Below are positions 8,852-10,292 of a stretch of 13,003 bases of DNA, one piece after another. Position 1 is the stretch's first letter; every line of letters begins with the position of its first letter. This DNA is from an uncultured bacterium (GTDB lineage Bacteria > Cyanobacteriota > Vampirovibrionia > Gastranaerophilales > Gastranaerophilaceae). The position numbers and the translations under genes are program-made. The notes under the pieces are model-generated. The model was not told the DNA's origin. It ran no database searches and saw only the letters and a program-made list of their open reading frames with translations. The DNA lies in contig USJT01000006.1 of NCBI GenBank assembly GCA_900555175.1, positions 1 through 13,003 on the forward strand. Reading direction: 5' to 3'.

Positions 8852-9107
8852 ATTTCCTGAGTTATTTAATCTTTTTTAAAATTGCTCTCTTCTACTATTA
8901 TATTAGCAAATCGACACATTTTTACTACTAGCCATTAGTATATATTTCAGGCGTTTTTATTAAATTTTGAAAAGTATAACAGACAAGATTTGTAAACTTA
9001 TGTAACATAATATGTAAAAATTATATATTGTTTACGCAATTTTTAAATACAAAAATACTTTATATAAATATGGAAATCAATTAAACAGGAAAACAAATTA
9101 AGAGATA
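8852..9107. other. AT-rich divergent intergenic region
   Basis: Holds the start regions of the minus-strand LuxR-type gene and the plus-strand gene at 9136. Visible elements are the small inverted repeat TACTA-gccat-TAGTA (8926-8940), the palindrome TTATGTAACATAA (8998-9010), the inverted pair AAAAATT/AATTTTT (9016-9022/9038-9044), and a plus-strand TATAAA (9063-9068) that may be the -10 box of the downstream gene. No gene or RNA was recognised. Confidence 0.45.
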
Positions 9108-9117
9108 GTGAGTAAAA
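9108..9117 (+). promoter_or_regulatory. 5' UTR half of an end-to-end pairing element, gene 1
   Basis: GTGAGTAAAA lies 18 bases before the ATG at 9136. Its exact complement TTTTACTCAC is at 9615-9624, after the stop of the same gene. The same 9-base core recurs at 9736-9744 before the next gene. Confidence 0.6.
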
Positions 9118-9135
9118 CAAACGGAGAATGGAATT

Positions 9136-9591
9136 ATGACAGGAATTAACGGAAATTTCGGATTATTTGGTAACAACAACAACAGAAGAATTGAAACAAA
9201 TGCTGCAAATAACAAAAAAGAAGTAAAAACTAATATACCTATTAACAACCAAAAAGCAGCAGAACATGTTGAAAATAAAGAACTTGGTGACGAATTATTA
9301 ACAGGTACAAATTTTTATCCTGGTTTAAACTTACATACATCAAAAAAAGTTGCTAAAGCTCAAACAGCAGATTTAGATGATTTGACAAAAACTGTACAAA
9401 CTATGAATTTGTCAAACGTAACAAGAGCAGATAGAAAAGAAGCTTTTAATCTTGCTCAAGATCCGTTAGTAAAAGCATATATGTATGGCAATATTAATAA
9501 CAGCACTATGTCTGTATTATCACAACTTGATGGCGAAGGCTTCCCTCCTGCTATGGCTGATGATTTGTTAGCTGAAGTTGAAATTGCTTAA
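9136..9591 (+). CDS. Small unknown protein, NGNxG N-terminus (151 aa)
   Basis: Not recognised. GGAG (9123-9126) lies 9 bases before the ATG, a good start. The N-terminus MTGINGNFGLFGNNNN leads into an Asn/Lys-rich, low-complexity stretch to about residue 50. The remainder is mixed and probably mostly helical (LDDLTKTVQTMNL, RADRKEAFNLAQDPLVKAYM, MADDLLAEVEIA). No signal peptide, membrane helix or cysteine is seen. The next gene encodes a protein of similar size with NGNxG at the same position, also asparagine- and lysine-rich at the start, helical and acidic at the end, so the two may be distant paralogues or partners. It has its own terminator (9634-9665) and matching elements in both UTRs. 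Function unknown. Confidence 0.8.
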   Translation: MTGINGNFGLFGNNNNRRIETNAANNKKEVKTNIPINNQKAAEHVENKELGDELLTGTNFYPGLNLHTSKKVAKAQTADLDDLTKTVQTMNLSNVTRADRKEAFNLAQDPLVKAYMYGNINNSTMSVLSQLDGEGFPPAMADDLLAEVEIA

Positions 9592-9614
9592 TATGTTCTA
9601 TTATCAATCAAAGT

Positions 9615-9624
9615 TTTTACTCAC
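9615..9624 (+). promoter_or_regulatory. 3' UTR half of an end-to-end pairing element, gene 1
   Basis: TTTTACTCAC begins 23 bases after the stop codon and 10 bases before the terminator stem. It complements 9108-9117 exactly over 10 bases. It also belongs to a 14-bp perfect inverted repeat with 9731-9744. Confidence 0.6.
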
Positions 9625-9633
9625 AAAATTTTT

Positions 9634-9665
9634 AAGAACCGATTTAAAAAGTCGGTTCTTTTTTT
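9634..9665 (+). terminator. Rho-independent terminator of gene 1
   Basis: The stem AAGAACCGA (9634-9642) with TCGGTTCTT (9652-9660) has a 9-base loop and a run of seven T at 9659-9665. Confidence 0.9.
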
Positions 9666-9734
9666 ATTGTTAAAATTTGTTACAAATGTAGACTTTTCCT
9701 TAAAGATTATTAAATAAAATACCGTTATACATTT

Positions 9735-9745
9735 TGTGAGTAAAT
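9735..9745 (+). promoter_or_regulatory. 5' UTR half of an end-to-end pairing element, gene 2
   Basis: TGTGAGTAAAT lies 32 bases before the ATG at 9778. Its exact 11-base complement ATTTACTCACA is at 10234-10244. TAAAAT at 9715-9720 is a possible -10 box, which would put this element near the 5' end of the mRNA. Confidence 0.6.
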
Positions 9746-9777
9746 TAAATAACCTGTTTTGGTTAAGGAGAACGGAA

Positions 9778-10215
9778 ATGAACAAAGTTAACGGAAACGG
9801 CGGCAAAAAACAAAATGTAGAAGCTTTAAAAGCATATTATGACGCATTAAGTGCAAGAAAAGCTGCTAAGGAAGAAAAAGCAGATAATGCTAAACCGGTT
9901 ATTAATTTTAAAGGTTCAGAAGGTATTGAGGTAAGTGCTTTAGATGCAACAGCTGCTCAGATTTGGGGAGTTCAATTATCAAAAGTTGATAAATCTGATG
10001 CTGCAACACAAAGAAGAATTGAACAATATTTTAATACACCGTTTATGGAAAAATTAGATGAATTGCAAGGTATTGAAGCTGAAGATAACTTTGTAGCTTA
10101 TGCAATGGCAAATGTTAAAGGTGTTGATCACGACAAACTTACAAAATATATGAGCAAACCGTTAAGTGAAGAAACAGCCGCAGGTGTAACAGAATTTTTG
10201 GATGCGATAGTTTAA
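9778..10215 (+). CDS. Small unknown protein, NGNxG N-terminus (145 aa)
   Basis: Not recognised. The ATG at 9778 follows AAGGAG (9765-9770) by 7 bases. An in-frame GTG at 9736 would add 14 residues but has no ribosome site and lies in the repeated UTR element, so it is rejected. The N-terminus MNKVNGNGGKKQ mirrors the NGNxG of the preceding protein. A charged Ala/Lys helix follows (about 14-40), then KPVINFKGSEG; short INFKG or SFKG motifs near the N-terminus are, as far as I recall, frequent in small unknown proteins of gut Melainabacteria. A helical, acidic domain ends in EETAAGVTEFLDAIV. No signal peptide, cysteine or membrane helix. It has its own terminator at 10253-10292 and paired UTR elements like those of its neighbour. 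Function unknown. Confidence 0.82.
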   Translation: MNKVNGNGGKKQNVEALKAYYDALSARKAAKEEKADNAKPVINFKGSEGIEVSALDATAAQIWGVQLSKVDKSDAATQRRIEQYFNTPFMEKLDELQGIEAEDNFVAYAMANVKGVDHDKLTKYMSKPLSEETAAGVTEFLDAIV

Positions 10216-10233
10216 CTACTTATAAATATACAC

Positions 10234-10244
10234 ATTTACTCACA
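10234..10244 (+). promoter_or_regulatory. 3' UTR half of an end-to-end pairing element, gene 2
   Basis: ATTTACTCACA starts 19 bases after the stop codon and 9 bases before the terminator stem, matching the layout of gene 1. It is the complement of 9735-9745. Confidence 0.6.
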
Positions 10245-10252
10245 CTTTATTT

Positions 10253-10292
10253 AAAGACTGATTAATAACAAAAATCAGTCTTTTTATTTTTT
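10253..10292 (+). terminator. Rho-independent terminator of gene 2
   Basis: The stem AAAGACTGAT (10253-10262) with ATCAGTCTTT (10274-10283) has an 11-base loop and a T-rich tract after it. Confidence 0.88.

Follow-up and report, generated by a model that had tools for sequence, protein, structure and literature searches.

Complementary ends shared by the messages of a Gastranaerophilales gene family suggest a closed-loop mRNA

The question raised by this locus is why the two ends of one bacterial message should be complementary to each other. The locus lies in a 13,003-nt stretch of DNA (this whole stretch is the window, and all coordinates are window positions on its + strand) from an uncultured member of the Gastranaerophilales, which are gut-dwelling, non-photosynthetic cyanobacteria (assembly GCA_900555175.1, contig USJT01000006.1). 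Two small genes there, gene 1 and gene 2, each carry the 9-nt word GTGAGTAAA upstream of the ATG and its exact reverse complement, TTTACTCAC, in the interval between stop codon and terminator (Table 1). The reading we prefer, with a probability of roughly 0.6, is that such genes are transcribed from sigma28 (FliA)-type promoters into mRNAs whose 5' end pairs near the terminator, giving a closed loop that is likely protected from decay dependent on a free 5' end.

A first-pass annotation, made from the letters of the window, had claimed these words and proposed helices of 10 bp for gene 1 and 11 bp for gene 2; both were confirmed exactly, coordinates included, as exact reverse complements, and the exact 9-mer occurs in the window at these four sites only. 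Its distances from the 5' element to the ATG (18 nt in gene 1, 32 nt in gene 2) and from the stop to the 3' element (23 and 18 nt) also held, whereas the terminator stem lies 8–9 nt past the element and not 9–10. Taken singly, a window helix is weak evidence: when the 60-nt leaders and trailers were shuffled with dinucleotides preserved, a perfect complement of equal length arose in 24 of 1000 trials for gene 1 and in 4 of 1000 for gene 2. Because the same word is found in two window genes and again in relatives, however, the arrangement is not due to chance. The base pair adjoining the core, A-T in gene 1 and T-A in gene 2, had been read as a compensatory change; the letters are as described, but by themselves are modest evidence, since over 56 non-redundant family units (64 sense units minus near-identical proteins) this position is mixed, with T-A in 22, A-T in 14, A.A in 15 and other combinations in 5. 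No Rfam model matched over its gathering score within the window.

Both genes belong to one fast-evolving family of ~140 amino acid proteins in the Gastranaerophilales. At E <= 0.001, the database relatives of gene 2 number 72 proteins and those of gene 1 number 18; the two proteins show no likeness to each other by BLAST. Nevertheless, 55 of the 56 pair-flanked open reading frames (ORFs) fall in one linkage group, with low-complexity filters off and partly via a shared N-terminal NGN motif. Identity with gene 2 is only 12–34% in 27 of 28 diverse members, and a profile of 29 diverse members matches family proteins in 126 of the 383 genomes covered for this order. No Pfam domain exceeded its cut-off for either window protein, and AlphaFold gave a poor model of the gene 2 protein (mean predicted local distance difference test score 53.6, predicted template modeling score 0.19). 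A scan of named genomes yielded 15 loci, 10 of them titled Gastranaerophilales, 2 Melainabacteria, 2 uncultured bacterium and 1 Fusobacterium sp. CAG:439; this last record (L011, FR900439.1) bears a Gastranaerophilales-type locus, and its title is probably a mislabel.

A search of relatives for the word pair flanking small genes, as the first-pass annotation had proposed, bears out its recurrence. From 224 family ORF hits, drawn from among the profile matches listed and with DNA fetched around many of them, 150 distinct units were obtained after removal of duplicates and of units with cut flanks. Both exact 9-mers are present in 106 of the 150, which is not an unbiased frequency because the set was partly gathered through the paired pattern itself; 25 units have the 5' word only, 1 the 3' word only and 18 neither. 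If a site is instead accepted when 9 or more of its 10 positions agree with TGTGAGTAAA or TTTACTCACA, respectively, the corresponding numbers are 123, 13, 2 and 12. Of the 383 genomes, 51 contain the paired pattern and none its reversed control; 51 is a lower bound, as only spacings of 444–474 nt were covered and the window's own pairs, like that of L133, fall outside this range. A sample of the phylum gave matches in 28 of 292 genomes (reversed control, 1 of 292), 27 of them already among the order matches, and the one match in the 161 newly drawn genomes of that sample (G468) came without any ORF of the family kind. Among the initial 15 relatives, L001–L012 have the gene 2 pair and L013–L015 lack it on both sides; the latter retain the word pair at a neighboring gene 1-like ORF; in 25 further genomes, pairs also occur, among the matches listed, in G013 and G014, where the gene 2 profile found nothing. 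The exact 9-mer occurs 6–13 times per genome in four genomes, with inward-pointing pairs within 600 nt at family genes only. Those flanked ORFs that were read form a single kind, many of them very divergent, and the words point inward at the predicted transcript ends in the units read. Over the 106 units, the 5' core ends 13–50 nt (median 17) upstream of the ATG, and the 3' core starts 5–70 nt (median 19) past the stop. In the trailers of L058, L059, L060, L172 and L184, the 3' word occurs twice, in full or nearly so, and the two copies may enclose a hairpin.

The 5' word stands at a fixed distance from a promoter. When 131 units were aligned on this word, a [CT]CG[AT] box was seen near the core in 80, always exactly at −14 and nowhere else in the last 18 nt; a TTAAGAG box takes its place near the core in a further 34, and 17 have neither. 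TAAAG is present at −34/−35 in 95 of the 131, and a T precedes the word in 96%. The sigma28 consensus is given as TAAAGTTT-n11-GCCGATAA, with the Escherichia coli aer transcript starting 6 bp past the −10 octamer (PMC2859248), and the gene 2 promoter, TAAAGATT-n12-ACCGTTAT, fits a sigma28-like pattern at the right distance. The fixed promoter distance together with the aer rule leads us to predict that transcripts begin 1–2 nt upstream of GTGAGTAAA. The FliA family scored over its cut-off in 74 of 80 related genomes and FlhA was found in 16 of 16 relatives; several Gastranaerophilales are reported to have partial flagellar gene sets only (PMC4040986).

The 5' word is not simply a part of this promoter, because several units that have lost both words (L013–L015, L201, L208, L210 and L213) retain the promoter. 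A strict sigma28 promoter pattern, matched in 28 of 30 genomes (three single matches in the reversed control), leads to the same rejection: of the 67 distinct places with such a promoter, 65 are not followed by the word, a count to be read with the pattern's missing many family promoters, and several units that lose the 3' site keep the promoter yet have a changed word. The two places followed by the word are L097, a family gene, and L133, a family-looking ORF with a matching 3' word. Promoters of the sigma28 type (L076–L143) also precede other genes, among them a recurrent one for a protein starting MG(M/L)AASQAR and several for small proteins, and a flagellar or export regulon is possible behind them. 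Besides full FlhA, all 16 relatives have a second ORF of ~490–505 amino acids that matches the FlhA profile in its C-terminal half alone (~residues 304–656).

Recurrence of two words is of course distinct from selection on their pairing, and for the latter the informative units are the 44 of 150 that do not have both exact 9-mers (non-canonical units). For these, using anchored short segments, the mean duplex energy of cognate ends was −9.19 versus −7.56 for ends swapped between units, and 0 of 5000 permutations were as good, although the gap partly reflects joint loss of both sites. For the 34 units in which both sites score at least 7, the values were −10.86 and −9.21, and for the 27 non-canonical units that keep GAG at the 5' site and CTCA at the 3' site they were −12.46 and −11.09 (0 of 5000, the same without L218). 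With unanchored flanks, p was 0.0005 for the 44 units and 0.0025 for the 19 with a changed 5' word. Individual variants point the same way. L218 has a remade helix in which ATGTTGAGTAAGTG at the 5' side faces CATTTACTCAATAT at the 3' side over 14 pairs, including two G.U; six related units have the same 3' change, to ACTCAA, opposite a canonical 5' word. In L044, L188 and L207, each side of the helix has gained one base at the matching position, and L067 has changed to a G.U pair. At the first inner position, 36 of 56 units are Watson-Crick paired versus 44% expected by swapping.

The two sites also tend to be lost together. Where the 3' site is lost (score of 7 or less out of 10; 13 units), the 5' 10-mer is changed in 12 of 13 versus 12 of the 137 others (Fisher p 2e-10, kinship ignored). 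Note that L181 and L217 score as having a 3' site that looks lost by eye, and that L144 was scored as a loss, within 110 nt, yet has the word 585 nt past its 5' word. On a rough tree of 298 branches, 4 of 6 changes at the 3' site share a branch with one of 14 changes at the 5' site. Since cognate ends pair better than swapped ones, L218 has remade its helix and the 5' word is nearly always changed where the 3' site is lost, it appears that pairing, beyond sequence alone, is under selection. The panhandle suggested in the first-pass annotation is supported by these observations and by the fixed promoter distance.

A number of observations weigh against this reading. The 9-letter core is nearly invariant between distant members and shows no free covariation. 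A helix under no other constraint would be expected to drift through matched replacements on its two sides; some further factor should also hold the core letters. In the unanchored test, the 25 units in which the 3' word has changed opposite an intact 5' word pair no better than swapped ends (p 0.26), the first inner position is an A.A mismatch in 15 of the 56 units, and inner positions further along give no clear cognate signal there. One-sided changes exist: only the 5' side differs in L193 and only the 3' side in L182; the ninth pair has been lost by a change confined to the 3' side in nine related units (CTTACTCAC), in one with GTTACTCAC and in three with ATTACTCAC; in L198 (two genes) and L202, the 3' word but not the 5' word has gained an A. 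Homologs that lack the elements or change one side without the other had been named at the outset as evidence against a panhandle, and they do occur, with 18 of 150 units lacking both exact words, but 106 keep both. Kinship was ignored in the permutation and inner-position tests as in that of joint loss, and the tree rests on a poor protein alignment. In the window itself, gene 1 has a degenerate upstream box, TTAAGAG, as its candidate promoter element, and no conserved T before its core.

As pairing appears selected, the family mRNA is probably a closed loop. In the mechanism we propose, flagellar-sigma (sigma28/FliA)-type promoters would drive both small genes, and the predicted first ~ten nucleotides, (U)GUGAGUAAA, would pair with the complementary segment just upstream of the terminator, tying both ends of the mRNA together within one molecule. 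Because the 3' word is transcribed last, closure would be open to complete transcripts only. The most likely role of the paired 5' end would be to hide from RNase E-type decay, which depends on the 5' end; 5'-terminal base pairing hinders RNase E in E. coli. RNase E/G is present in 16 of 16 relatives, an RNase J model scored over its cut-off in 0 of 16 (weak partial matches in 12), and Hfq was found in 0 of 16 by a search that gave positive matches in five control genomes. Shielding from RNase E consequently fits better than an Hfq-dependent small RNA (sRNA). Closure need not block translation, given the distances of 13–50 nt from core to ATG and of 5–70 nt from stop to 3' core.

Folding of the predicted transcripts with ViennaRNA placed the core helix in the minimum free energy structure of 56 of 56, with a mean probability of 0.95 and a lowest of 0.42 (0.93 and 0.99 for the window genes). 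This is feasibility only, in that a ~500-nt loop permits the helix in the model, and no evidence of selection, because any 9–10-bp complement at the ends is expected to fold in silico. The predicted access of the ribosome-binding site was 0.56 on average in the closed form and 0.49 in the opened one (27 of the 56 transcripts). Opening the 5' end thus did not raise predicted access, and sequestration of the ribosome-binding site is unsupported.

The near-invariant core leaves room for a sequence-specific binding partner, which the first-pass annotation had named as an alternative, or for pairing between sister mRNAs. The sequence GTGAGTAA also occurs in 16S rRNA. RNase III is one conceivable reader of the 9–11-bp helix. 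The better of the alternatives, though we consider it unlikely, is pairing between molecules: the 3' end or a 3' fragment (word plus terminator) of one family mRNA would bind the 5' ends of the same or sister messages and regulate them. With a terminator behind it, the 3' word resembles a seed region in its layout, and a word common to the members of one genome, which would follow if family members also pair with each other, would help to explain its near-invariance. As a bare observation, L044, L188, L207 and L218, which retain pairing despite an altered 5' word, are in genomes without a second canonical member among the matches listed. However, the canonical word is also retained where a single member was detected in a genome (G026, for instance), the pairing site is upstream of the ribosome-binding site, and the relatives' lack of detectable Hfq also counts against an sRNA of this kind. 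A broader version, equally doubtful in our judgment, is that the ends are sticky for the family as a whole: each 5' end matches each 3' end, so that messages could close on themselves or join sister messages head to tail, only complete transcripts would be stable and the output of a regulon would be linked at the RNA level.

Less probable still is an operator pair, i.e., protein sites on double-stranded DNA rather than RNA ends. A near-invariant core across distant members is what such a site would look like, but the words point inward at predicted transcript ends in the units read, some variants keep a G.U-tolerant pairing (L067, L218), the 5' word changes upon loss of the 3' word with the promoter staying in several such units, and 65 of 67 sigma28-type promoter places have no word. 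We give similarly little weight to loop closure acting mainly in translation, a terminating ribosome being brought beside the start site of the same mRNA for reinitiation; the short median distances of 17 nt from core to ATG and 19 nt from stop to 3' word, and a predicted ribosome-binding-site access that is not lower when closed, would suit it, but the access difference is small, model-based and of varying sign between transcripts. We set aside a mobile cassette with the words as its terminal inverted repeats, because they have fixed places relative to promoter and terminator, and a viral source was rejected in that three matches in a viral collection had, by eye, no family-type ORF or promoter.

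The usual picture of a bacterial mRNA is an open string, and the 5'–3' pairings in the literature consulted for comparison with the closed loop are single cases. The closest described is icaR mRNA of Staphylococcus aureus, in which the 3' untranslated region (UTR) pairs with the Shine-Dalgarno region, hinders translation initiation and creates an RNase III substrate (PMC3868564). There, as here on predicted transcript ends, complementary 5' UTR and 3' UTR segments occur in one transcript, and in that account, as here, the pairing may be in cis or in trans. The Shine-Dalgarno region is the partner in icaR, whereas here it is the predicted 5' terminus, and one gene is involved there, whereas here a gene family found across an order has one word in common. 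In S. aureus RNAIII, A24–G30 interacts with U452–458 (PMC7821165), so that the 5' and 3' parts of a short coding RNA, of a length similar to the messages here, are joined by a long-range helix; it is a single RNA, and the passage describing it mentions no word common to several genes. In Vibrio, OppZ and CarZ are described as autoregulatory sRNAs derived from 3' UTRs (PMC7398697). The likeness to these is that the 3' end of a transcript would act, via a small RNA, on its own transcript. They are reportedly released by RNase E and Hfq-dependent; here, Hfq was found in 0 of 16 relatives. 5'-terminal stem-loops such as that of ompA are mRNA stabilizers; a base-paired 5' end would protect the mRNA in both cases, though ompA has a local hairpin, whereas the partner strand here is at the far end of the mRNA. 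No description of these elements was found in titles and abstract starts of open-licence literature on Gastranaerophilales/Melainabacteria, UTR pairing and 3' UTR sRNAs. End-to-end pairing, tied to a predicted start, seems retained in many members of a gut-bacterial order despite protein drift, and more than 100 natural sequences are available for asking if mRNA closure serves stability or translation in bacteria.

Table 1. Features of the two small genes and their predicted transcript ends (window positions).
Feature	Positions	Strand	Remarks
Gene 1	9136..9591	+	151 amino acids, starts MTGINGNFGLFG; ORF, family member by homologs and linkage
Gene 2	9778..10215	+	145 amino acids, starts MNKVNGNGGKKQ; in-frame ATG within a 159 amino acid ORF; family member
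Gene 1 5' pairing element GTGAGTAAAA	9108..9117	+	core 9108–9116; read from sequence
Gene 1 3' pairing element TTTTACTCAC	9615..9624	+	core 9616–9624; stop-to-terminator interval
Gene 2 5' pairing element TGTGAGTAAAT	9735..9745	+	core 9736–9744; read from sequence
Gene 2 3' pairing element ATTTACTCACA	10234..10244	+	core 10235–10243; stop-to-terminator interval
Degenerate −10-like box TTAAGAG, gene 1	9098..9104	+	from aligned promoters; box type shared with 34 of 131 units
Predicted sigma28 (FliA)-type promoter, gene 2	9701..9728	+	TAAAGATT 9701–9708, 12 nt, ACCGTTAT 9721–9728; predicted start ~9734–9735
Possible small leader hairpin TAACC/GGTTA, gene 2	9750..9765	+	between 5' element and ribosome-binding site; similar sequence in relatives by eye
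Gene 1 intrinsic-terminator-like stem AAGAACCGA...TCGGTTCTT plus T run	9634..9667	+	by eye
Gene 2 intrinsic-terminator-like stem AAAGACTGATT...AATCAGTCTT plus T run	10253..10289	+	by eye

The 5' word of gene 2, GTGAGTAAA, doubles as an in-frame GTG start, which yields the 159 amino acid ORF (9736–10215). Some database relatives of gene 2 are annotated at 158–162 amino acids, possibly as start-site over-calls. Elsewhere in the window, positions 1004–1732 encode a protein with four stretches matching DUF2963.
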